Shown here in pieces: positions 9,133-39,800 of a stretch of 64,000 bases of DNA (the first letter of the stretch is position 1; each line of letters starts with the position of its first letter). Source of the DNA: Rhododendron vialii. Taxonomy: Eukaryota > Streptophyta > Magnoliopsida > Ericales > Ericaceae. The notes below the pieces were generated by a model that saw only the letters and a program-made list of their open reading frames with translations, did no database searches and was not told the origin of the DNA. The translations under genes and the position numbers were made by a program. Where the stretch lies: NCBI RefSeq assembly GCF_030253575.1, contig NC_080557.1, positions 43,476,501-43,540,500 on the forward strand. The letters run 5' to 3'.

Positions 9133-12100
9133 TTACCTTTGACCCCGAATTTGACTTGATCCCCTTCCACTAACCCCTGATATCTGCTTCAGGTTAGTAA
9201 GAGCTTCCTGTGCATGGCTCTTGGTTACTGCATTTCCTTGCTTAAGGGCTTCCACCAAAGCCCTCACCAAGGACTGATTGAGAGAGTGGTGTTGGCTAAC
9301 ACTTTCCACTCTCAAAACCCTCTCCACCATCCAACTAGTCTTCTCTTGAAGCTCCCCGGGTCGAGCTTCTTCAAAAAGCAAGATCACTGCATCCACCACA
9401 CCTAGCTTATCGAGCTCCTCAACTGCTCGTTTGAGCCCATCGTTAAAAGAATCTACTAAAAGTGTAGAAAGTGCTTCCACCGCAGCAATTTGGACATTTG
9501 TGTCCTTGTACAATAGAAGATCAACTAGGGGCTTGACACAATTGCTCTTCAACAAGCAAAACTGGTTGTCATCTTCGCATGGGGAGTTGTGTATTGGGCA
9601 CTTGGAATGTTCCAGAGAGGCCCTACCACACATGAACACCAATGGAGAGCAGAAACCATGGGGAGGTGGTGGGTCAGAGCCCCCAGTGGCAAAAAGGATC
9701 CTTCCAGATTCCGACAAGCATTTCAAACCAAGGGCAGATAGGTACTTCACTCTTGGTTTTGAGCTGAGAACAAGCGGGTCCCGGAAGATGTTCATGAGGT
9801 GATGCTCTTTGATGAGATTAACACTTCGAGGATCCGTACTCCTTGTGAAGTGAAGTAAGAGACCAAGAAGCCCTTCCACCATGCTCAATGAAGGCATGGA
9901 AATTCTACGATCGGATCCTTGACATAGTTCTTTGAGAGTGGTAACGGTCCATTTCAGAAAACTAGGTCCTAGGACTGTCTTCACATCATCTTCTGAGAGG
10001 GGAAGATTTGCGAGTATGCAAGCAGCATCAGGTATCTCGTTATCTGTGGATTGATCGTTCTGTAGTTTCTGTTTAAGTAAAGTAAGCTTGTTAGAAGCTT
10101 TAAGCTCACTGGCTAGGTCTACACCAAACCTTTCAGAGAGGACTCTAGTGAGCTTGAAAGCATAAAGTCTGCATTCAACTTCGGGGTGCTCGAGAAATCC
10201 TATAATTGTTTTGATGCCATCTCCAGATATTACATGACCCGCAACAGATTCTGCCAAGGAAAATACATTTGGACCCAGTGAGAAGTTGAGAACACTGCAA
10301 TCGACATTGAAGAATATAGGTGGTGGATGCATAAAATATGCAAGCAATTTCTAACTATCAACATGACCGGATAGAAGAAACTACCCAGAATGTCTGGCAC
10401 TCTATTCATGTAGCATCACAGAGGATATGTATTGTACATGCATAACATTTTGAGGCCATCATCTACATTTAGTGTGTAACCATTAGATTCGAACTAATTA
10501 CACGACACCCAAGCTATTTGCTATCTGGTGAAATTATGGGCTTTTCTGCATCTTGCATCCTTCTGTTTCGCACTTCTCCATTAGAAATAGATATTCCCAG
10601 ACACCATATATGCCAAGACAGTGTCGTCAAACACAAAACGTTGATGATTGGCAGAACTTAGTTTTTGGAAACAGGATTTTCATGCACCAAGGCTCCAACA
10701 GCATTGCCGTGTTTCTCTTTTCATTACTTCTTTATCCACAAAATTTTATAACCCTGGGGAATGCAGGGGCATGGCCACACCCCACGGTCTGGGGTCAGGA
10801 AATCGTGGGTGAACAACTTTTAGGATTGGCCACAGTTTCAATCATAAAGTTACCTGAAGCCTGGGGAGAGGATGCCATTCCAAATAGAATATGTAAAATA
10901 GTCGCTTGACATTGAGGAGATACCACAGATAAGAGGCCCAAAAAACTTGAGACAATTGTTTCCGACTGTATTGAATTCCCTTTCTTGTCTGCGGATGCTA
11001 ACTCCCAGTGCCCAGGTTTTGAAACTACACTTGCGATTATTGATGCAGCCAATTCTTTCAGCTCTGGTGGTAAATCCTGATTTTCGAACAGAATCTCCGT
11101 AAGAGCTGGAAGCACTGCTGAATCAACAAGGATAGTTGCATTGTCATCCAAGGATGACAAATTATACAAAGCTTGCAAGCTCGCAGATCTTCCTTCTGGC
11201 TTGGATAGCAGCTCAACTAGTATTGTAGCACTTTGGCGAGCAATTAGTTCTTTACTGCTATTTGTCATGGTCATTCTTCCCACCAAAGATGCCATCTCTA
11301 TTTTAATATCATCAGGACCTGTTTCCCAGAGAAATACCAGAACAGTCAATAGATAGTTGTTAAAGCATCCAACTCAATACCAATTGGCAATGAGAGGAGA
11401 GGCCGCCCAGGCTCATATACTAGTCTACGAGGTGATAATTAACCGATGTGGGACAATTTTTGACACTCCCCCGCACGTGCGACCCCTGACTCGCACATGG
11501 AGAGGAACAAAGGATCCAGAACACATGGATCACAGCAAAACAAAGTGCAACTATGGCACAAACAAAGGGGAAAAGCCTCCGAAAACCTAGCTCTGATACC
11601 ATGTTAAAGCATCCAACTCAATACCAATTGGCAATGAGAAGAGAGGCCGCCCACGCTCATATACTAGTTTACGAGATGATAATTAACCGATGTGGGACAA
11701 TTTCCAACGATAGTTTTGAAAAGTTTCCGAAAAATTATCAGCAACAGTAAGTTGGATCTCCCAGGAGCTTTGTTTCTCATTTCTTTTCATTCAATTATAG
11801 ATCTATGTCCTACAGAGAGAAAACACAAATACTTTAATAAGTTCACCATTTTGAATCACCAACAAATTTAACACCTCAAAGTCCAGGCAATGTGTTAATT
11901 GACACTTCATTCTACTAAATTTTTTAGACTCTCTACCAAACAATGCTGAATCTGGAAAAGATTTAGCTTTTCTTTCCTACTGTATGAATTAAGCATGAAT
12001 CAGCTAGCTTGATATGCAGTACCACAACTGCATGCAATGTAAAAGCTGCACTACAAAAACCACTTGAAAGGTCCAGAATTCGAAATGATCATGGAAATTA

Positions 12101-15100
12101 AAGTTGATCCAGATGTCAATCCAATTTCTTTCAACAATAAACTTAAACAGATAATTTGTTTAATAAACGCTCCTTCTCCTCTTTCTTTTAGTTCCTCCTT
12201 TCTTTCTTTCTTTTCTCATTTCTCATTTATTGTTTAGTATGAGTGATAATCTCAAATACCCAAGTTATGCATACCATGAGAAGTAGAAGCAAGTAGAAGC
12301 AGTAAATGGTATAAGCCTTACCTTCACGTAACCGATTAAGTAAAGGCTCAAATCTTCCTGCTGCTGCTAGATGCTGAACATTATCCTCCACCTTTTCCAT
12401 TAGTTTTAAAGCTTCCTCAGCTAAATTAGAAAGAGTGGGATGCTCTAGATTTCCTGCCGTGGTTGACAGCAGAACTAATGCCCCTTTTTCTGAAGCAAGT
12501 TTTGTACAATAAGCTTCATCACTTGAGAATTCAAGCAATAACTTGACAGCAGACTCTCTCTCTTTCTCGGAGCTGCCAATAAGGCTATGTATGGCCAATC
12601 TGGTTATACCCTCCTCAAGCATTATTTTCTGTGAAGAAATACCACAACTTTAGAAGAGTTTCAACAGCATACTTTGAAATACACGCAGACCGTTACAGAT
12701 GATTTTTTTAATGATATTATGGTCAGCAGCCATTTCAACAGCATACTTTGAAATACATGGAGACTACAGATGATTTTCTTAATGATATTGTAGTCAGCAG
12801 CCATATAATAAGAAAGGTACCGATGAGGAAATTTACAAATATTTCTTCTTTAGACAACAATACCAGCTCTCCCACACGAGGGCTCAAGGGACACAGTATT
12901 TCACCATGAGTTGAATTCAGGGACGGTGGGAAGTGCAAGGGTGGGGAGGCCTCCCCCATCCTTGCTAGTATGAAGTACCACTCTATATATGGTATAAAAT
13001 GTACACTAAATCCATAATATATTATATCGGCCCCTCCAAACTTTAAAGTTTAAAATAAAAAGTGGCTAGGTAGTGGAAAAAAATACTCTCGTTTGTGAGT
13101 ACATGTACGTTTAGCCAAGTATGAATAGAAAGTGGTTATATTTTCCTTGTAGAACACTATTCCTTAGATTTCATGCTTGAATTTCAAACTATATGCAAGG
13201 AAAACTTAAAAATTTAACAACCATGTGAAAAGGTGGAAACTAGGTTCTAAATCCTAGCTTCTACATAAATCCTAGCTCCGTCCCTGGTTGAATTCCCAAT
13301 CTGCTTTTGAACCAAAAACCTTGATACAAAACAACCTGAATCTTGTTAATTGGGAATCAAAAATTCTACTGCAGGACAGCACAACTATCGAAGTTATCAT
13401 GAAGCTTCTTACAAGGAATAAGCCACTTTTTAGGTTTTAACTCCTGCTTCAGTAAAGAGTTTGCCAACTTCCTAAATATATAAGCTGTTCGAATTGACAC
13501 CTAAAATGTTGGAAACATCTTACTTATATTTCTCACATGACAGAAATTTTCTATTCTGCACTGTCTCCTCTTTCAAGGCTAATTCTATGGTACATTTAGA
13601 CCTTACCCATAATACTTTGCTCAACAAATCTTCATTTCCTAAAAAGAGTTTCTTCAACGACGAAAGCCAATCTTGAGAATTATATACTCCATACACAACT
13701 TTTTAGTGGGAGTGACACTTGAACTTAGAACACATGTGCAGGCTTTAATGCTTAAAAAGCTTGAGTTCCTAACTCCTATGTAGTTATAAAGGTAAAGAAG
13801 TTCCCAACCAATTACTCATCTAAGTGGGATCATAAGTAGAATTAGTTTGATATCATGCAAACACGGAAACTTACATAATGCAAAAGATTAGCTCAAGTGG
13901 TACGAAGGGCAGAGGTAAATATGCCTGAAAAGCACAAGTCTCTAATAAGATGTATGGCAAAGTGGATATGTCAAAAAGTATTCCAAATCAAAATGAAAGG
14001 CCCGGAGAAAACATAATCAATCACATCCTATGTATGAGGGTGAGACTTGAAAATTTCACCTTACTTTCTTCATCCTTGGACATGCTAAGCAGCACCATGA
14101 GAGCTTTGCTTCTCAAAAGTGATCCTATACTCTTTGAGCTGTCCTTAAGCAAATTAACTACAAGAACAACTACACCAGCATTTCTCACTTTGTATCTGCT
14201 AGACGGGTGCTCTTCTGAAATCCTATAGATGTGATCCAAAACTCGTTCCACACAATTCTCCGAAGGTGACTCCTCACTAAGACACTGCACAGACAACTTA
14301 ATCTGAATCTCAACATTCCTATTGATCCATTCTTCAATGGCTCCAGCCAACCCAATGTTTGCGTTCAGCTCCAAAGACTTCAGGACCTGTCCTGTGACAG
14401 GACACGTTGGGTCACGACCATCCTCTATACACCGCTGAAACCAGTACTCAATGGCAGTCCTTTCGTAATTTTGTGAGGACTCCAAAACCACCGGATGCTT
14501 CATCACCTCCTTAGTCAATGGGCAGAGGAAGTTCTTGAATGGAGAAATTTGAGCATCATCTTCGAAATCTAGATCAAACTTTTGAGTCAAGACATCCGAT
14601 TCAAGTGACCAACTGTTCATAATTTTCTCAAGTGATGTCAAAATTCGCCTCTCTGAAACCGAATTTGAGCGGGCAATATCTTCTTTCAATAGCTTAACCT
14701 GTTCCAACAACTCAGTATGGTTATTGGAGTCAATTCCCAAAGCCCTAGCCAAATCCATGATTATAGCACTCTGTACTGCTTTGGTTGTTGGTCTACCTTG
14801 CCCTTCTTTTTGCAGCATCAATTGCACTCTCTTCTCATTCTCCGTTACCTGCACCATTATAGAGTATCACACAAGCAAAATTGCCTGTGCCTAAAGGCAC
14901 TTCCCAATTATATGACTGCACAACTATACCCTAAAGCACAACTAAACCAGCTCCAAACCTGAATCCCTACCAATATCTGTCTTTTAAAAAATACTTCACC
15001 AAATTCAATTACCGCAATATGAGGTGAAAAATTCGTAACCACCACTTTGACAGTTCAACCATTAATCAAGCCAAAAATTTCACACATTTCATCAAACATC

Positions 15101-22300: not shown

Positions 22301-24986
22301 AGGGTATGAATAATTGTTTTTGGATTGACAGAATAAAAAGATCCTTTTACATAGTACTCTGAAACGAACATGAACTTCTAACCTCAAGTTTTGTACCCAG
22401 TCAACTATCTCTCACCTTTACTAACTGCTTTGTCGCATATTTCCGGAGGCCGTCATCGAAGGAGGACAATATCTCGTTTGCCTGCAATGAGAGTTTTTTT
22501 AAACTTCATCAATACAGGTATGGAAAATGATAGGAGTGAAGTAATAGCGTCATTGCTATCAGGTTCCAAACACAAGTAAAAGAATTGGGCCAGCAACTCT
22601 AGTGAAGATAGGAAAGTAGTCGGAAATAGTAAAGATGGGGAATTGGGAAATCCACAACTAAATTTGGAGGAGGCGTATTCCCTCACTCACATGGTGGGTT
22701 CCAACAGTGTGAGAGGTAGAGATCTAGAAGCGAAATTTGGCTTTGGACTTAGTCACAAGAAGATCAATCGCAATCAAATCCATCGCAAAACTTTCTAAAA
22801 GCACTAACCTCGATCAATGTAACACGGATATAGTCTTTCACATGAGCATATCTTTGATGTACATCCTTGATGATAAAATCACTAAGTTCACCGCTAAACT
22901 CCACTCCAGTTGGACCGCCACCAACAATGACACAGTGTAGGAGTCGACTTTTTTCTTCCTCAGTTACTCCTGTCTCAATCCACAACAATTAAAGGAACTT
23001 ATCATGAAAGTCTATATTAACACCTAATGACAGTGAATGATATCTTAATACCATACCAGGAACGTCGGACAGCATCAAGTTTAAGAGTAGTTTCCTCCGG
23101 ATTTCCTGAGCATGATAAACTTCTCGAAGGAAGATTGCATGCTCTAGCACACCCTTAATTCCAAAAGTCAATGGCTGTGATCCAGCAGCAATAACTAGCT
23201 TGTCGTACGAAAGTTTGAAATTCCACGGATCCAAGCTATCAGCTCCTTCAGTGACAGTTTGACAATGCACCTAGTGGAGCAAACTCAATTGCTTCATCAC
23301 TATTTTCATAGGCAGAAACCAATTTAATTAAGTGCAGTGCTAGTCCTCTATTAAATACTACCCAGGAAAGGGACAGTGAAAAGAAAAAAAGAGAGGCTGT
23401 GCACATCATAACGGTCATGGATATGGGTGGTAAATCACTTCCCACCATGACCATATTGTGTGTGACCAAAATCTCAGGTATAACGGTCCATAACCGGCGT
23501 TCTGTAATAGTCATTAGGTAACGGTAACAGATTTCAGCAGATTATACTTGGGCCACAAAGTTAAATCTACAACCTCCAATCTCCAAGGTCTAAAACATAC
23601 AGGGTTGGACTTAGATCCATATTTCATTAAACTTACATTATTTTTTCTATTCATTCTTTGATTGAAGAATTAAGATTATGAACAACGTTTACTTAAGGAT
23701 ACATTTGTTGAACAAAAGTTGGAAAGCCACCCTTCCTTCTTGCATTCTGAAATGTGTAACGTTTGGTTGCTGGAACCACTACTCTATTCACATTGCGTCA
23801 TTCAACTGTGTCATCGCTGCCAGTACCACTACAATAAAGGCAACCTTTTTCGGAACCATGACTCAGGGATCAGCTAAACTTCTAGAAACAAACACCAGAG
23901 TAATCAAATAGCCAAAGATTAAGACTTGCTTTAAGAACAAAAGGAAGATGCCATTCCCATCACAATAAAGGCCACGAAACTCAATCTCTTTCACCCTAGC
24001 TTTCCCTTCCATTCAATTCACAAAAGAAATTAAGGAAAGAAAAACGAAAGGTAAAACCAAGTCCTGTGACTTCTTTAAACTTCATCACCATAAAAGTTAC
24101 ACTCAACACAAAAGTGTGAACTTTTTAGACGTATTTGAGCTCTGTTCTTTTTTATTTTATTTGAAAGAAAGGATTCGGCTTCTCTGCAATTGCAATGCAG
24201 AGAAGTCTCTGCAGTCTCATCTCGTCCATTCATCTCAGTAATTCATGGTTCGGGTTTTTAAAAAATCTTTGCGGGAAGAAACTATTATATTCTTCCTACG
24301 AGGAGTCTTTCAACAAGATGTAACTATTGAAAATATTTTTGGACGGCGGTTACACTGCCCTTCGAAGTACAAACACAGATCACGGAGCAGCTATTTCCGG
24401 AAAGAAATATCCAAGATTTAGAATTTCAATTTCCCACATTATCCTAGCAACCAAACATACTCTCAAAAAAAAAAAAAAAAACCATACTCTCAACCGACAA
24501 AAGGGCACAGACATCGCATCAATGAGGGAAAAACTACCGTACCACATGGTCATCGGTATCAAGCCCGGTACAATTAGCGAGGAAGAAGTATGAGCCCGGT
24601 TCTCTCGAAATAGCCGGTTGAATCCTTCCGATCGGCTCGGCGACGGAACGGAACTCCAGGGTGCCCACGCAGGTCGAAGCCAGGAGGGGGGTGAACACCA
24701 TGTGGTTCCTGGGCGACACGCAGACGACGTCGTACAGGCTGGTGTCGATTCCCTTCATGAGGCGGCACCCGGCCCACCCGGACCCGACCACCACCACCCT
24801 GGGCTTCTCGTCGGGCTTCGTCGGGCCCAGCCCGGCGTACCGACCGGGCTCCGACTGCGTGGTGATGAATCGAGTGACCGAGTGTGTTAGGGATGGAGGA
24901 GGCGAGAGGGCGGCTTGGCGTTGGAGAGATGAGTGTCGGGATACGGCGGAGGTGGAGAGTTGGAGGAAGTTTCTGAACCAAGGCAT
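19313..24986 (-). CDS. NDA2: Internal alternative NAD(P)H-ubiquinone oxidoreductase (type II NADH dehydrogenase, NDA type)
   Basis: Eight exons right to left: 24543-24986, 23057-23270, 22809-22969, 22416-22481, 20909-21072, 20490-20604, 19548-19727, 19313-19465, giving 498 aa (Arabidopsis NDA1/2 are about 510). The enzyme passes electrons from matrix NADH to ubiquinone without pumping protons. Visible features are a Ser/Arg-rich mitochondrial presequence (about 1-45), the FAD-binding GSGWAG at 68-73, and the second dinucleotide motif [16 protein letters not shown] with GGGPTG at 236-241. There are also the [15 protein letters not shown] and [13 protein letters not shown] segments and the C-terminal [10 protein letters not shown]. 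No EF-hand is present, which separates it from the external NDB type. The final SRI is a PTS1-like peroxisomal signal, known in Arabidopsis NDA proteins. The exon 1 donor has two readings; GTACGG was chosen over GTGGTA because it preserves the family length (DDHVVHCQ). Confidence 0.94.
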
Positions 24987-26766: not shown

Positions 26767-27927
26767 TCAAGGATTATCCCGCCTTCTATTACCGCCGTTG
26801 CTCCCACCGCCCACACCTCCGAACTTGGGATCGTGCCCTGTGTTCGCTGACGTTTCATTACCATCGCCGTAGTCATCAATTGAAAGTTGGAGAGACCTTC
26901 CCTCCGTGTTCCTCACCATGGGTATCTCCCGCCCTGCAACCGTCGGCGGATTTACTTAAGGATCAGTAGGCGGATTTACTCAAGGATATCAGTACCAGTG
27001 AGGGGCCACTAACTTTCCCATAATCACATTTTAGTCTAGTAATATTTTTGAATTTAGCCCTCTAATGTTGTAGGTGTACTTCCTCCTAAACTCTTAGCTG
27101 ATCATAATTTTTGCCTTTTTGGCAAAAATTTTGGGGGTTCAAGTGACCACACTTGGCAGAGGGTGGAGCCAGAAACTCGGAAAACCGTCTCCAATGCAAA
27201 ATCTGTCAGAACTGTCCAATTTCATCTTAAGAGTGTCCTCATTTGTCAAAAATTCTGCCTACGCCCCTGTCTGCAACCCCCCACGTATCATTACCCATAA
27301 GTGTTCTTATTTACTTTTCCTTTAAGAAATATACAACCCAGTAATCAGATTACACCTCTCGTGGTAATAATTATATCTACAGGTTCTCTCATACTATAGT
27401 CTATATAACAGTTGATTCTACAAATGAACTGTGTGGTTTATTTATGAAGGCAATGACTCTAATAAATTTTTTTATCAATCTCTTTCTGTTCATTATTCTT
27501 AAAAACATTTTTCAAAACTCAAATCGGACATGGATTCATGATGTGATGTCATGATGGATTAAAATCTCCACCCACGATTCAGTTTCCAATGCCATTCTAG
27601 AGACATTGGATCTACAGATGCACAAGAGGGGAGGGGGGTAGTTTTCAATTTGCTTACGAGATTCATGTGGCCTCTTAAATCTTTACCCAAAGTTGATGAG
27701 TTTTACAGTCGGTGTAGGGCACGCACTACAATGCCATTGATTCAAAAATGGCCGACGCGAAAATACGAACTTATCGGCTTCGAATCGAAAGAAATCTACT
27801 CGTCGACATTAATCTATAGTACCACCGTTGTCGAGAAGCGTACCTGAGAATGAAATGGTGTTTCGGGCGTAGCAAATCACGGCAAAGCTCAACAGTAAGC
27901 ACAACCATAGCCGAAGTCCTACCCCCA

Positions 27928-27928
<1 letters not shown>
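26767..27928 (-). CDS. PSY3: Small secreted peptide precursor, PSY-like (tyrosine-sulfated peptide family)
   Basis: Two exons, 27844-27928 and 26767-26933, separated by a 910-bp intron (CAG/GTACGC donor, TTGCAG acceptor, phase 1), encode 83 aa. Residues 1-22 form a strong signal peptide (MGVGLRLWLCLLLSFAVICY). The mature part has acidic SIDDYGDGNETSAN followed by TGHDP, then a Gly/Asn/Arg-rich tail. PSY peptides carry DY, where the Tyr is sulfated, followed by AN and HDP. All three occur here in order, but DY and AN are seven residues apart rather than four, and the usual Pro between them is absent. NET is a possible N-glycosylation site. Position supports the call: it lies between NDA and PHF5A, where Arabidopsis carries PSY3. 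A GA tract abuts the ATG. The gene model is firm on signal peptide, phase and splice sites; the family call is an inference. Confidence 0.72.

Positions 27929-27958
<30 letters not shown>
27929..27958. repeat. (CT)n tract abutting the peptide-gene ATG
   Basis: CT repeats (one interruption) run right up to the start codon at 27928; GAGAGA on the coding strand. Confidence 0.95.
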
Positions 27959-28362
27959 GGAGTCTGGATTTGTGAGCTCAAAACGGTGCAAGATGTGAGA
28001 GGGTGAAACCGCACGTGAAGGCCATTTGGTCTAATACAGTAATTAATCTAATTTTACGGTCAGATTGTGCACGAATCTGAATCTAAATTGGCGAGAGGGG
28101 CATTGAATAACTTCTCTTGCTGATATGAAACGTGGCAATACATGATTCGATAGCGGAGGTGGACGCAAACGTGGGAGACAAGTTCGTAAGCAGGAACAGC
28201 TTCCCCAGATAGTGAATCTGAGCCATCCATATTAGGTCAACGGGTTGCTGTGGCTTATATAAGCCTTCCTTCACGAATCTCGGGGTGGGTCTCTGTAGAC
28301 CGTAGTCAACAAAAAAACGCAGTGCCTCTCTGGCTTTTGAGATATGATCCGAATAATTTATT

Positions 28363-29854: not shown

Positions 29855-30976
29855 AATTTGAAATGAGTTCGGGTATTGATACATATTCACGGATGTTAAT
29901 AGAATTTCACAGATATCAATACATTTTTTTTTTCAAATACCAATGCACGTTTTACCTATTATCTTTTGGCTTTTGGGTGGACGTTAATAGTTTCCTAATT
30001 TATTTTATGGGAGTGGTTTCTATCCTTTCAAAAGAAAAATTAAAGTGGTTTCTAATTTTCTCGGCTGTTCTGCCGGAAACGTTCCCTGTTCGGTTTGAAT
30101 TTTGAGAATAATAAGTGAAGAAAGATAGATATAAAAAATTTATTGTAAACCGTGCCCAAGAGTTTTGAGACCCAAAAACGAACACGGCCTTCGAATCGTT
30201 CCCTTACCTGACCGATTGAAATTATCATTTCCGTTAATATTTTCGTTCCCTTACTTGACCAATTGTAATTATCAATTCCGCTAATGTTGTATATCTCATC
30301 GAACAGGCTTGATTATGGTTCAAAATGATGTTAGGATGCGATCATAGTACAAAAACAAATCAAATTTGTGTCCAAGTCAAAACACATTGAAACAAGCTTC
30401 CACTCAAACATCATGCTTAGCCTACGTCAGTAGAGGGAACGCAATACCGTCCACTATGGGCGCAGAAGCAACGGTTGCAGGTCCTGACATAAGGGTCCGT
30501 TGAGTTTAAGCAATGAGCCAATGAGCAACATTGTGTGTGTGAGAGAGAGGTTGCAAGAAGTGACATTGCATAACCAAATAGAGAACACTCCGGATCCAAC
30601 GATGCCACGAATACGGGTTGATCACATACCTCTTGAATCCAAGACAACAAAACAAAAACAAATACCAGCAATAGCCACCAATGACGATACAAAAAGCAGC
30701 ACAAAAACAAGATTCACTTTGACAATAAACATGGAGATTGACTACTAATAATGATCGCACAAGCCCAAATGCAAATTCAACAACAAGAAGGTTCCCATTC
30801 AGATAAGTAAGAGTTAACTGCACCATCACCATCCACACAATCATTTTTAAGAGAAAAACACCCGAAACTAATGGACCCACGACGACATTCCACCATTCTG
30901 AAATATGGTATCTCCAAGCATATTACTAATACATAATGGTAACTGAAAAGACTAGGAAGACAATCGTGCAATACTA

Positions 30977-31309
30977 TCACCTCTTCTTAAAACCATACTT
31001 TTTACGCTCATAGAACAGGTCCGTCTTGGCACTCCCCAAATTGACAATTTTTGGACAGCCATCTCTATCTTTCTCCTGCTGTGTGCACTCCTTGCAATAA
31101 TAGGCATCAGAGATTCCCACTCCTCCACAGATGACACATCGACCCTGAAAGGATCCGTAGTTGCATTCATCGCAAACTCGCACAAGTGTGCAAGGGCGCA
31201 CATAGGAGTCACAAATTACGCACTTGCCATCATCTTTCTCACATAGTCGTCCAATGGCGATACCTGGCTGCTTCCTGCACATTATTAAATCAGGATGATG
31301 CTTGGCCAT
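30977..31309 (-). CDS. PHF5A: PHF5A / SF3b 14b-like splicing factor (SF3B7 subunit)
   Basis: A single-exon CDS of 110 aa beginning [19 protein letters not shown] and ending [11 protein letters not shown], the full length of this nearly invariant eukaryotic protein. It contains the Cys pairs (CVIC, CDEC, CVIC, CKEC) that form the zinc knot. Family role: a subunit of the SF3b complex of U2 snRNP, acting in the nucleus in branch-point recognition. The 5' leader appears spliced. A leader exon at about 33862-33925 ends AAG/GTCAGC, and the acceptor TTGCAG at 31351-31352 leaves 40 nt of leader before the ATG. The resulting intron of about 2.5 kb begins with a CT microsatellite and holds duplicated repeat DNA. 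The frame is open for four codons upstream, but only with a TTG, so MAKHH is the start. Confidence 0.97.
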
Positions 31310-33375
31310 TCTTCCAGCCAAAAGGTCTTAAGTCCCAAACTTGATGTAACCTGCAACCAATTACATGAGGGTCAGTACCGTGTACGGATAAACTACCAAC
31401 CAACCAGCAATGATTTTCCAGTAAGAAAAGATGACAAATAACTGTGGTCGTTTTACTTAAGTCAATCTGCAGATTTGGTTTGCCTGGACCGTTACTGTCC
31501 CTTAAAGTGACACACATAACAAATCAAGAACTTTTGGCCCAGGGGACTTCAACAGGGTCGATCATTTTCAGCGGCTAAGGGAATGTCAAAAGGAGTTGGT
31601 TAATGGGAGCAGGAGTCAGGAGTTCATAAAGTAGATGTTTAGAAAAAGCAACTCAAACGGGAAAATTAGAACCATAGATAGGATAAGGTGCACGCGCCTA
31701 GCTTGTGCCAACCTACAAGTTGTATGTTAAATACAGGGCTTGTGTTGACGAATGATTAAAAGAAAGAACAAAAGAACAAAGGTTACTTGTACAGTTGCAC
31801 CTGTATCTTCATCACAAAGCCGCAGCCTCACATTCAAATAAATTAGACAGATTGTCTGAAACGATTATTGTGTTTCACAGAAAACATAAAAGAGAAATCT
31901 TCACCAAAATCTTAGTGCCATGCAGAAATAGGCACAATTTTAACTTTGAGAATCCATGCTTAACATGATTGTTGGGCTCCAGACAAGCACAAGTTCAGCA
32001 CCAGCTTCGGAAGCAAAGTACCAGCATGCTCCCAATCGCTGCACCAGTTACACATTTTGACGAATTTTCACATGTTCGGCCGACTTTGTCTTGTTTTGGA
32101 CTTCCTCAAGCTTTGTTTTAAATATTTCCTCGATGGTTTTGGGCTTGGATTGCAGGTGACCCTAATTCGGAACACATTAGTCCAAGGAAACCTCTCTGAG
32201 TGAACTCTTCAGCACCTTGGGTGACCCGTTAGGGATCTTTGGTAAGTTTCATTGTTGGTAGACCTTTTAGGTCAATGTAGAGATCTATGTCGTCTGTTTG
32301 GTTGAAACCTGAAACTAGAACTATGTGCAACTTGTAAGGAGAGTATTTTCTGTAGAGAGGACCCCTTTTCTCAGAGAACTTGCATCAATTAGACAGCTAA
32401 GCCTTTGAAAGAGTTTGCTTTGTCACCATTCTAGCTCTTGGGAGCACTCATCATCTTTGCATTAGTAAAACCCTTGGTTGTAGTGTTGAAACATGATGTA
32501 GTTAAAGGAAGAACCATAAAACTCGTCTTCTCATGTTTATATATGTGATTCGGTATTTCTCTTTTGATTTCAAATATGGTGGAGTTTTCAGGCAGCTCTT
32601 CGCACAACATACCAAAAATACAATTCTTATAGCTATGAAGCACAGGTATGGGTACAAGATACGGCAAAAACCTAAAAAAGTAGGGTACAGGTACGGCTAC
32701 GGTACGAGAAATAAATTTTCTTTTCAAAATAACTATAGCATGCTTTATATGTAACATCTACCAAGTATAGCAAAACGTTAATTTCAAAAACAGAGTGATT
32801 AGAAGAGCAGATTAAGTATTATAGTCAATATAATTGCTGATCTAATCTCACATTTGACAGAAGTCCCGTCACTGGAGGAAAGATTGATCGGAGATTCAAT
32901 CGGCAGAGAAGAGACTGGAAGCAACTTTCGTCTTCCTTCGTAAAGGAAGATGCACGTTCTAAAGTTAAAACCCTAGATCTAAAACATTGTGGTCTTGAGT
33001 TTGTCAATGAGGAATTGCATAACAACTTAACAAGGCCAACAATTTGAGTATTCACCGGGAAACCAAGGTTTTAAAAGCATCAAGAACATGCCTAAACATA
33101 CGCAAATAATTACCCATTCTCATACCCACAATGTACCAGTGTCGCACCCAAAAGGCAAAGAAGTACCCGGTGCGTTTTCGGAGTACCCAGTACGTATTCT
33201 GCCATACCCGTACCGTAAAGATACACAAGACTCACACAGTACCATTTCCGGAGTACCCGTCCTTCATAGAACTAATACCCTTAGTTGTTGTGTTGACATA
33301 TAACCTCATTATAGGCAGAACAATAAATTTCAGCTTCTAAATTTCTAATGTTTGTAATTTGTATTCGTGATTTGG

Positions 33376-33858: not shown

Positions 33859-35214
33859 GACCTTGAAGTTTCTTCAATGCCCTAGCGTGCTCCCAGATTG
33901 CAGCCGTCAGGATTGTGAGTGAGGGAGCACTTTTTATTGGCGAGCGGAGAATAGAATTCTATAGAAGGATCGAGACTCAGGAGGGCTGCGAAAGGCCTTG
34001 GACTCCCGTCTATCTGGGCTTCAAGCTTGGTGGGCCAGATACTCCAGCCCATCTTCCTCCACCGCCTTCAGTGAAGTACTTTCGGAATTCTAACATTGAA
34101 AAGTTATTAAACTGCCTACAACATCAAATTACAGATGTGTATATAGAGGGAGGGAAAGCATAAGAACTTAATTGATGAGAGGATATTACAACCTATCAAT
34201 ATGCGGATATACAAAGAGGCAAGCGGGATTATCTGACCCCACTGGATTGGAATTCTTCACAGAGATGTGCGTATATTTTTAGATGCTTTGGTCTCGTCCA
34301 TATGTCTTGCCCCAAGTAGTATTGGAGAATTACAATCTTGCCTAACTTGTTTCACTTAGCACCTGATTTTTTTACTATTTTTTTTGTCCCATCTACTTTT
34401 TAAAGTAATAATGCATACATCTTTTTTTTATTAATCTTTAATTTGAATAGAAGTTACAAAGATTAAAAGAATCTGGACATGATGGCATCACAAGCACACC
34501 TTCTAATAAATTTCAACTAAGTTGGCATCCATGATTATCAACAATCATATGTCACGAGGACCCAAACGAACAAAACGAGTTAGCAAGAAACCAACCGTAG
34601 TTTTCTGAAGACAGAATTGTTTTTCCTGTGAATATTTGACTCAAGTGCCATAAAATTCTAGGTCCGCCACCTACTATGTGTGCAACTAATACAGCTAAAA
34701 CAATACAAATTGCAAACTAATGAAGACAAATAACACAACCAAATCAAATGAATGATACACATCGAGCGATAAAATTGATCTGGCGATTAGATGTCAGAGA
34801 ACCATATGTAGATTTGCGATGATCAACTGTCCTGGTAGTCTCACTATTAACGAAACTTCCTTACAGAAATTGACTGATACAAACCAAGTGACTAAAGCAC
34901 CACAGGTTGAAAGAACTACATGCACGGTTAGTCTACGTGCATCTCGACAGCCAAGATGGATGAGATTCATAAGAAGGTAGGATTGAGATTGAGATTGGTA
35001 ATGAGATGAGATTGATAACTTACTTGTTTGTTTGGGATGAGATTAGATGATGTGATTATTAATATTATGTTAGTTTCACATATGATAGGATATGATTGGA
35101 TTGAATGAATAGTATACATTTCCATTTTTGCCCTTACGTAAATCAGAACGATAACTACACCCTGCACTATGCATCAAAAGCAAACCGAGAAAACAATAAA
35201 TAACCCAAAGTCTT

Positions 35215-35690
35215 TATAGTAAAAAAATATAGTTAAAAAATTAAATGATCTAATTTTTAATTCGTTTGAATTGATGCGAAGATCTTAGTAATCTAATCAT
35301 ATTATTCTAAATGATCATAATTAAATTTTATTTTTAGGGCTCTCATAATTAAGTTTCTGCCCCACAAGATCCTAAATAGAAAACATAAATTTAATTATAA
35401 GAGCTTTAGAGACAAAATTTAATTATGACCCTATAGAATAGGATGATCGGGAAAATAACATCTTCGCACCGGTTCAAATGGATTGAAAATTGGAGTATTT
35501 AATTTTTAACTATATTTTTTAATATATAACACCGTTTAAAAAAATAAATTGCTCCAATTTTCAATTCGTTTGAACCGATACGAAGATATTATTATTTTGA
35601 TTATATTATTCTAAATTATCATAATTAAATTTTATCGTTAGAGCTCTTATAATTAAATTTTTGCTCCATAAGATCCCTAATAATTCTTCC
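35215..35690. repeat. Foldback repeat units related to the array in the dioxygenase intron
   Basis: Alternating inverted copies of a unit containing TTAATTATGACC, AGAATA(A/G)(T/G)ATGAT, AAGATCTTCGCA-like and GGTTCAAACGGATT-like blocks, with TTTAATTTTTAACTATATTT at the centre. The same unit occurs at 38190-40110. Confidence 0.75.
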
Positions 35691-36320: not shown

Positions 36321-36821
36321 ATTGAAAGTTAGTATTCAGTTACTATTCACACTTAATTGAAAGTTACTATTCACATACAAATGTATACATATGCTCTCTG
36401 ACAGAGCCTCATAGGAGGAGCTCGGCTCCCTCCCCCTCACAGTGCTCTACTCTCTTTACACTGCCTTACTCTTCTCTCTGGTCTTTCACTCAAGAGAGAT
36501 ACTAAAAAAAACCCAATGCAAAGGACTCCAATTTATAGCTAAAACTTGGAGCCCTGTTCATGAGCCACGAGAGGCTTATTTACTGCAATCCCACGCCTGG
36601 GATTTTCCGGATGTAGGCGTGCCTTTTGAAGGCTGCCATGCTAATCCAAAACCTTGACTTCAATCACCCATTCAAAGTGGGGCCAACAAAATCGACAAAG
36701 GTTGCCAATCTTTATCCAATCTTTTGACCAAGGAGAGGATTTGAGCCACATATTCCTACAAGAATAACCACCGGCGGTTGTTGGAAGTGAAATTGCTAGG
36801 ATCCCGTGTACCCTATACAAC

Positions 36822-36841
36822 AGAGAGAGAGAGAGGGGACC

Positions 36842-36874
<33 letters not shown>
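36822..36874. repeat. (GA)n tract in the dioxygenase leader
   Basis: Two GA runs (36822-36836 and 36845-36874) ending 24 bp before the ATG. Confidence 0.95.
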
Positions 36875-36877
<3 letters not shown>

Positions 36878-36897
36878 GACATCATCTCTTCTGCAAA

Positions 36898-39800
36898 ATG
36901 AAAATGAGCCCCAGCATACATACACCCAGCTACTACGACTCCTACCCTCCACTCTTGCGCCCAAATAACAACCCAATCCACGACCTTAACCAAGACCCGA
37001 ATCCTATACCCGACCCGAATCCCGACCCAATACCCGTTATCGACTTCCAAAACATACACAACGACGCCATATCGGAAGCATGCCGGAATTGGGGCGTATT
37101 CCGTTTGGTAAACCACGGGATACCGGACGCACTCCTGAACCAACTCCGCGGCCGAGCCGAAGAGGCGTTCTCTCTCCCCTTCGATTCCAAACACGCCCTT
37201 AAGTCGTGCGCTGCCATGGCCTACTTTTGGGGCACCCCTGCCCTTACGCCTACCGGGGAGACCGTAGAGAGGGGTCCCACCCCCCCGGCGGACGTGAAGT
37301 GGTTCGAAGGGTTCAATGTTCTTTTGAATCAGCAGTCCCAGCAGCTTCAAGTTGAAGATCCTGTGCTTGACAATTTCAGGTAGTAGTAATTTTTTACGTC
37401 TCCTTTTTGGTCGACTTTTTACTGACTAGTTGACTTCGTAGACCTTCCCCCCCCTCCCGGTTTCGTTCTTGTTCATTGGGTTGTTTGAGAGATCCATTTA
37501 TGATCACCGGAGGAGGCAGGCACACGCGATATGAGCAAGTAAAAAATTAATCCGAAAACTTTGATTAAATTCGTGAATAGCAAGGTTATCTTAATTCACC
37601 TCTTCACAAATTTTTGACCACAACTATATATTTCAATCTCCCTCCTCGGTTCTCGATCTCTTCTTTTCTAAAATATGTAACAAAGAAAATTGAAATAAAA
37701 GGAAAATTCGATTCAGAATTTTCGTATGTATTTTACTACGATTTTGATAGGAAAAATATTATTGCAGCTCAACTTGAATTTGAATATGACATTCTACAAC
37801 AATAACTCTGATATTTCGTTTTCATACAAGTTTTTCTTGTTATGTCACATTGACCCCACAATCACAATTACAGTGTTGGTGGCTAATTATTGTTTCAAAT
37901 GGGTGCATGCGTACTTTTTCATTGCATGATTGGAATGTTGACGGATATGGCCTTTCCTAGCTAGGCCTTAGAGCATCTCCAATAGACTCAAATCGATTCT
38001 AAGCAAAATGACTAGAAAAAGTGCAATTTTTTACTTTAGTTAGCACCTAAATATTTGTATTGAGAATAAATTATACACGGAGGGGCCGTGTATGAGGAAG
38101 TGCCCGCCCACCCAATAAAAAAAAGGCAACTCAGTGGGTGAGACAGTGGGCAAAAAGGGACCAATGTTAGGAAATGATTTTTTGAAATCCTGTGAAGCAG
38201 AAATTTGATTATGAGAGTTTTAAAAATAAAATTTAATTATGACCATTTAGAATAATATGATCAGAATAATAAGATCTTCGCAGTGGTTCAAACGAATTAA
38301 AAATTGGAGCACTTAATTTTTTGATTATATTTTTTTAATATATAAACAATTCAAAAATATTAATCGTTTCAATTTTCAATCCGTTTGAACCAGTGCGAAG
38401 ATCTTATTATTCTGATCATATTATTCTCAACAATCATAATTAAAATTTTTCTTTAAGGCTTTCATAATCAAGTTTCAGTTCCATAGATTTATGATCCTTT
38501 AAATTTTGTTCATCATTTTATGACCCTTTAAAATGAAGAACAAATACTTAATTATGAAAGCTCTGGAGACAAAATTTAATTATGACCATTTAAAATGATA
38601 TGATTACAATAATAAGATTACAATAATAAGATTTTCGCACGGGTTCAAACGGATTAAAAATTAGAGCGCTTAATATTTTTGAACCATTTATATATTAAAA
38701 AAATATGGTCAAAAAATTAAGTGCACCAATTTTTAATCTGTTTGAACCAGTGGGAGGATCGTATTATTCTGATCATATAATTCTAAGGGGTCATAATTAA
38801 ATTTTGTCTGTAAAGCTGTCATAATTAAGTATTTGTTCTTTATTTGGAACCCCGTGGAACAGAAACTTGATTATGAGAATCCTAGAGACAAAATTTAATT
38901 ATGTTTGTTCAGAATAATATGATTAGAATAATAAAATCTTCACACTGGTTCAAACAGATTGAAAATTGAAACGCTTAATATTTTTGAACTGTTTATATAT
39001 TAAAAAAATATGATCAAAAAATTAAGTGCTCTAATTTTTAATCCGTTTGAACTAGTGCGGTAGGGGTGGCAAACGGGCGGGTTTGGGTCAAATTGGGTAA
39101 GTTGTTAGTGGGTTGGGTCTTTAATGGGTCATTGACCCATTTAGACCCATTAACTATGAGTCTAATTACTCATACCCAACCCGACCCATTTATTTCAAAG
39201 CAAACCCGACCTGACCATTAACCCAATTACATATATACTAAAAATTATGATCGAAAAATTAGAAAAGTAAAAAAAAATTATGTTCGAAACTCATAAATTT
39301 TTTCAAAAAGACGAGAATAAGTAATTTTTTTTGTCTTATTGATTTTTTTTTTGTCTTTATTCAAAAAATTATAAGTTTCGATCAAATTTTTTTACTTTTT
39401 TGATTCCTCTCATCAAAACAAATTAATAAGTCACAAAAATATGGCACAAAACAAATAAAATGCAAAAAAAAATTGAATAAGGACAAAAAAATAAGTCAAT
39501 TTTTTAATCCAAACCCTTTGCGGGACTACCATGAGAGAAATTTATTCATGGCGGAGCACAATTTCACGGGTCCATTCGCGCAATTAATGGATAAGATGTG
39601 TTTTCAATTTTAACTGGTTAAAATAATTGTTACAGATCACAATTGATTTTTAATTCGGACCATTTAAAATATTTTTGGACGCGTGTGATTTAGCACAAAA
39701 TAATTGAATAAAAGAGGGAGAATGCCATGCTCCTTGGGAGGGGGGGCGAGAGAGAGAGAGAGGGGGCCGTACTCCTCCACTTCCCAATTGCAAAAGAGAC

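Follow-up and report, generated by a model that had tools for sequence, protein, structure and literature searches.

The two-exon gene and its precursor

On the minus strand of the window (the whole stretch of Rhododendron DNA that was analysed, 64,000 nucleotides) lies a candidate two-exon gene, which runs from an ATG at 27928 to a stop codon ending at 26767 and encodes a precursor of 83 residues by translation of the joined exons. The parts of the gene and of its product are as follows.

27844..27928, minus strand: coding sequence of exon 1, made up of 28 codons and 1 nt, with the ATG at 27928 and the donor CAG/GTACGC at 27843
26934..27843, minus strand: intron of 910 nt, GT..AG, phase 1, by splice consensus
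26767..26933, minus strand: coding sequence of exon 2, made up of 2 nt, 54 codons and the stop, with the acceptor TTGCAG/GG
27866..27928, minus strand: probable signal peptide MGVGLRLWLCLLLSFAVICYA, 11-residue Kyte-Doolittle mean up to 2.97
26887..26898, minus strand: RSLQ in the translation, a fit to SBT6.1 sites of the type RXLX (PMC7913133)
26827..26874, minus strand: variant core DYGDGNETSANTGHDP, 16 residues (canonical 13), from translation and motif scan
26851..26859, minus strand: N-glycosylation sequon NET within the core, from sequence only
26770..26826, minus strand: Gly-rich, basic C-terminal tail KFGGVGGGSNGGNRRRDNP, from translation

The TTGCAG acceptor ends at 26934 and the stop codon of exon 2 occupies 26769-26767. 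The phase fits across the junction (1 nt + 2 nt), and the joined frame is open and gives the full precursor MGVGLRLWLCLLLSFAVICYARNTISFSGREIPMVRNTEGRSLQLSIDDYGDGNETSANTGHDPKFGGVGGGSNGGNRRRDNP. Without splicing, the exon-1 frame runs into a stop after 39 codons, and the CAG/GTACGC donor comes before that stop; the frame contains eight GT dinucleotides, only one of which, at 27843, is preceded by CAG. The GC content is 49% and 55% in the exons and 39% in the intron. A gene hidden in two short exons had been proposed in the sequence-only reading, and the open joined frame, the splice sites and the phase confirm this proposal, including the lengths of 28 and 54 codons and the coordinates. The candidate is very probably a real gene.

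The precursor consists, in order, of a hydrophobic signal-like start, RSLQ, DDYGDGNETSANTGHDP and the Gly-rich basic tail. The signal-like N-terminal start, called by Kyte-Doolittle hydrophobicity as the single measure, and the short precursor are traits of the PSY family; the length of 83 residues lies inside the range of 71-104 residues given for the nine AtPSY precursors (PMC11534595). Cleavage of the signal peptide would fall after CYA. Upstream sites of the form RXLX or RXXL for SBT6.1 have been reported in PSY1-5 (PMC7913133), and RSLQ provides a subtilase site of this kind upstream of the core, such a short motif being easily matched by chance. The start of the core with DY fits the proposal for SBT3.8 in the same paper.

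Gene order and the PSY3/PSY4 locus

The candidate sits between two other genes, and all three lie on the minus strand.

30977..31312, minus strand: coding exon of a PHF5A/SF3b14b gene, Pfam PF03660 (PHF5), E 3.1e-49
24537..24986, minus strand: first coding exon of an NAD(P)H dehydrogenase gene, Pfam PF07992 (Pyr_redox_2), E 9.2e-7, with later exons to at least about 20520

The Pyr_redox_2 gene that starts at 24986 we take, from its sequence, to be an alternative NAD(P)H dehydrogenase of the internal (NDA) type. By convention, Arabidopsis locus numbers increase along the chromosome. In Arabidopsis, NDA1 is At1g07180 and NDA2 is At2g29990 (PMC3716789), PSY4 is At1g07175 and PSY3 is At2g29995 (PMC7913133, PMC11534595), and PHF5A/SF3b14b is represented by At1g07170 (SF3b14b-a) and At2g30000 (SF3b14b-b), both of which are marked "1-2a" (PMC545797), a mark taken to mean a chromosome 1-2 duplication. 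Since the numbers rise along the chromosome, both Arabidopsis blocks read PHF5A - PSY - NDA, an order that comes from locus numbers and not from a map. The presence of the same trio at the candidate locus is strong evidence for orthology with PSY3/PSY4, and the position of the gene is the strongest new evidence. It is very probable that the candidate and AtPSY3/PSY4 are orthologues, and the PSY3 type suggested earlier from sequence thereby gains independent support from the gene order PHF5A - PSY3/4 - NDA.

Upstream of its core the candidate reads MVRNTEGRSL. Taken in the sense direction, the qPCR primers of Tost et al. (PMC7913133) translate, in one of three frames each, to MVRGRS for AtPSY4 and RSLMVS for AtPSY3; these frames were chosen for this reading. 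At2g29995 (PSY3), then an "unknown protein", appears in tables of Arabidopsis genes that change under iron deficiency and under combined iron and sulfur deficiency (PMC2676303 and PMC4700279), and this listing may offer a lead to when the candidate gene is used.

The genome searched comprises 532,647,506 bases in 13 contigs. PHF5A is present in three copies, the further two lying at C1:40864919-40865251 (100% protein identity, 111 residues) and C13:7393785-7394093 (95%). The second C1 copy is 2.6 Mb off in the opposite orientation, and its DNA matches window positions 30605-32037 at 88-90%. The NDA exon has four further genome matches, the best on C2 at 68% identity. The C1 PHF5A copy, the C13 PHF5A copy and the C2 NDA-exon match each lie in about 19.5 kb of sequence that holds no PSY motif, so no second PSY3-type gene was found next to them, although a much-diverged one could be missed; the other three of the four NDA-exon matches have no PSY match in about 1.5 kb on each side. 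As no PSY motif occurs within about 10 kb of the C1 PHF5A copy, the duplication seems to have proceeded without the PSY gene. Near the C1, C13 and C2 places, the motif scan returned three GRSL matches and a single match that contains a stop and is not a PSY. With the two exon products as queries, tblastn yielded weak matches, the best of which (E 0.015) is a Gly-rich stretch with neither DY nor HDP.

A core with seven residues between DY and AN

The five conserved PSY residues D, Y, N, H and P, which are retained in order in 31/32 sequences of Tost et al. (PMC7913133), are all present in order in DYGDGNETSANTGHDP. The gap between DY and AN is GDGNETS, seven residues, and the AN..HDP spacing is normal. 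The corresponding gap from DY to [AP][ND] is four residues in 9/9 Arabidopsis cores, with sequences as given in PMC11534595. With its gap of seven the candidate departs from the strict motif DYXXXX[AP]NXXHXP of Tost et al. (PMC7913133), so the product is not filed here as a motif-defined PSY; the gene is filed as an orthologue at the PSY3/PSY4 locus with a variant core. The gap of the candidate is also devoid of Pro. In the same Arabidopsis set, the third gap position is occupied by a residue other than Pro in three of the nine AtPSYs (AtPSY5, 6 and 8), and AtPSY5 is the single member with no Pro in the whole gap.

A relationship to PSY had been proposed earlier from the order of DY, AN and HDP, and it stands, with the five conserved residues kept and with a motif that did not arise in any of 150 simulated windows. 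The gap of seven instead of four, absent from all nine Arabidopsis cores, and the NET sequon, as read in the sequence, were likewise described correctly. The lack of a central Pro is real and is less distinctive than was assumed, because 3/9 AtPSYs lack the third-position Pro, although only 1/9 lacks any Pro in the gap. That the gene may stand for a variant PSY3 subtype, perhaps processed or recognised differently, is a conjecture of the earlier reading. The simulated windows, 64 kb each and amounting to 9.6 Mb with both strands read, were generated by a first-order Markov model with the dinucleotide make-up of the window and were scanned without stops for the loose motif DYX3-9[AP]NXXH[DN]P, which occurred 0 times. 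A near-identical pattern occurs once in the real window, at the candidate gene. The motif is not expected by chance, and to it are added the signal-like start, the splice sites with their phase, and the gene order. Judged by eye, an origin of the insertion by slip duplication does not convince. The core also contains a GT..AG stretch of 15 nt; as a mini-intron it would be much too small, and splicing it out would leave the motif unrestored, so this reading was rejected on inspection by eye.

AtPSY3 (At2g29995) and AtPSY4 (At1g07175) share with the candidate the small secreted precursor type and the order DY, AN, H-D/N-P. Their cores, DYSDPTANGRHDP and DYGEPSANAKHNP, have a four-residue gap with Pro, in contrast to the candidate with seven residues, no Pro and a NET sequon. 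AtPSY1 (DYGDPSANPKHDPGVPPS, PMC11534595) has the DYGD start, SAN and HDP as in the candidate, whereas its gap is GDPS rather than GDGNETS and its C-terminal prolines (VPPS) have no counterpart in the candidate tail. RGF/GLV/CLEL peptides have the N-terminal DY in common with the candidate; unlike it, RGF1-4 are without AN..HDP and end in HN or NN.

A parallel to the insertion comes from root-knot nematodes. MigPSY3 has two extra residues between DY and NXXHXP, with the domain given as DYX5-7NXXHXP, and its authors are aware of no plant PSY with an insertion (PMC10629525). The insertion lies in the same DY-NXXHXP interval as in the candidate, with two additional residues there and three here, and the form DYX8NXXHDP of the candidate falls outside even the wider motif of that paper. 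MigPSY3 is moreover a nematode product of 50-51 residues whose mature form carries the motif at its beginning or close to it. No description of a plant PSY with an insertion of this kind came up among the best-ranked papers of a literature search that took in few subscription papers and no alignments from figures or supplements. The Rhododendron gene is a candidate plant case of an insertion in the MigPSY3 interval, with three extra residues.

Proposed mode of action and alternative readings

We consider the locus to be the Rhododendron orthologue of Arabidopsis PSY3/PSY4, a gene for a tyrosine-sulfated peptide hormone with an in-frame expansion of three residues between DY and AN, and assign this reading a probability of roughly 0.78. 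In the known PSY pathway the peptide is secreted, cleaved and sulfated on Tyr, and it binds PSYR receptors; these promote stress responses in the absence of ligand and permit growth in its presence (PMC7913133 and PMC10519359). By analogy, the precursor would be secreted and cut by subtilases at RSLQ and before DY. The Tyr of its DDY site, a putative sulfation site with acidic neighbours, would be sulfated by TPST. The released peptide, beginning DYGDGNETSANTGHDP, would then bind PSYR-type receptor kinases, by which the stress programme would be turned off and growth permitted. Most likely the insertion loops out as a spacer between two receptor contacts, the sulfo-Tyr and the NXXHDP anchors, and lowers or retunes the binding to PSYR rather than abolishing it. 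Some of the molecules may carry an N-glycan at the NET sequon. MigPSY3 with its two additional residues still promotes root growth in tpst-1, the truncated form doing so less than the longer one (PMC10629525), which suggests by analogy that insertions can be tolerated. Against the orthologue reading weigh the departures from both the strict core motif and the wider nematode one, the upstream ATGs described below, the absence of any Pfam match, the three introns of most wheat and tobacco PSY genes, and an Arabidopsis gene order that rests on locus numbers.

A further step, which we put forward tentatively and hold to be rather doubtful, is that the gene represents a plant PSY3 lineage with a functional, possibly N-glycosylated extended core (DYX7AN) that is read differently by PSY receptors, a counterpart to the insertion in the nematode mimic. 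Were this true, sulfo-Tyr and NXXHDP would act as separable anchors with a variable spacer between them. A longer spacer in a naturally occurring plant PSY would provide a direct test of how the receptors measure the distance from sulfated Tyr to NXXHDP, a question raised and left open by the MigPSY3 work (PMC10629525). Published PSY searches, such as the one by Tost et al. and that in wheat, rely on a fixed DYX4[AP]NXXHXP and therefore miss an orthologue such as the candidate; a search by gene neighbourhood would recover PSY orthologues that the fixed motif misses.

It is unlikely, though of the alternatives this one survives best, that the PSY3/PSY4 orthologue is losing function, its change of spacing having broken the fit to the receptor in a frame that has yet to decay. 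The departure from the strict core motif speaks for it, as does the region upstream of the start codon, in which one putative promoter element was recognised.

28255..28261, minus strand: TATATAA box, a consensus match only, some 330 nt before the ATG

It is the only TATA match (28261) in 522 nt upstream. Between this match and the start codon (27929-28261, minus strand) there are five upstream ATGs, with frames of 56, 47, 27, 6 and 15 codons, some of them nested. With a spliced leader or a later transcript start these ATGs need not matter, but otherwise they would impede translation; introns in the leader or another start site are possible. We also note a GA repeat directly before the ATG of the PSY-like gene.

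The loss of function is favoured, too, by the finding of no close second copy in the genome from which constraint could be read. At E<=0.001 the sole match of exon 2 in its own genome is its own place, and a canonicalised exon-2 query returned no paralogue at E<=10. Against a loss of function, the change is in frame, and the reading frame, both splice sites, the signal-like start and the elements RSLQ, DDY and HDP are intact.

The AtPSY1 and AtPSY5 peptides found no match and no other PSY in the genome; run without a positive control, this search speaks neither for nor against further PSY genes. The 54-aa exon-2 frame gave 69 pattern matches in viral_contigs and 593 in genome_contigs, 0 confirmed in either; both are non-plant collections, and the result carries no information on conservation. 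A Pfam search of the candidate returned 0 families up to E 10. The one match among PDB sequences, to a VHHL6 chain (E 0.063), was rejected as chance.

Slightly less probable than a loss of function is a diverged ligand, in which the insertion and an N-glycan would alter the choice of receptor or give a weak or antagonistic PSYR ligand. It concerns the same gene as the preferred orthologue reading and overlaps with it. The insertion falls in the interval where MigPSY3 has two additional residues, the short form of MigPSY3 is less active, and the NET sequon starts within the gap after Tyr.

On a par with this in likelihood, and compatible with the PSY3/PSY4 orthologue, is a gene model that differs around an identical core, with exon 2 starting at 26954 or with extra introns leading to another precursor. 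Upstream of the core, after the preceding in-frame stop, there are six AG acceptors, and two of them, with exon starts at 26933 and 26954, are in phase with the 27843 donor. Use of the 26954 acceptor, which keeps the frame open, would lengthen the precursor by seven residues; the core is unchanged with either acceptor. By consensus, the TTGCAG before 26933 is the better acceptor, which argues against this model. A short direct repeat, AGTAAATCCGCC, seen by eye twice on the minus strand 24 bases apart, occupies 26945-26980 just before the exon-2 acceptor and takes in the alternative in-phase acceptor. Most wheat and tobacco PSY genes are reported to have three introns (8/9 in tobacco), in contrast to the one coding intron modelled here; some wheat PSY genes have two exons.

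That chance open frames, and no gene, account for the locus is highly improbable, short as the exons are (28 and 54 codons), given a motif absent from all simulated windows, a conserved three-gene order and splice sites in phase.

Elsewhere in the window, positions 35209-35645 match, in either orientation and with about 71-72% identity, a 600-base part of a further stretch (L015, 3089-3682); they may be a transposable element of the inverted-repeat kind. On the minus strand, 9133-14857 contains exons whose Pfam matches are to the U-box and to Armadillo repeats, and which probably belong to one ordinary plant U-box E3 ligase gene. On the plus strand, 36787-37383 is an exon of a 2-oxoglutarate-dependent dioxygenase-like gene (PF14226).
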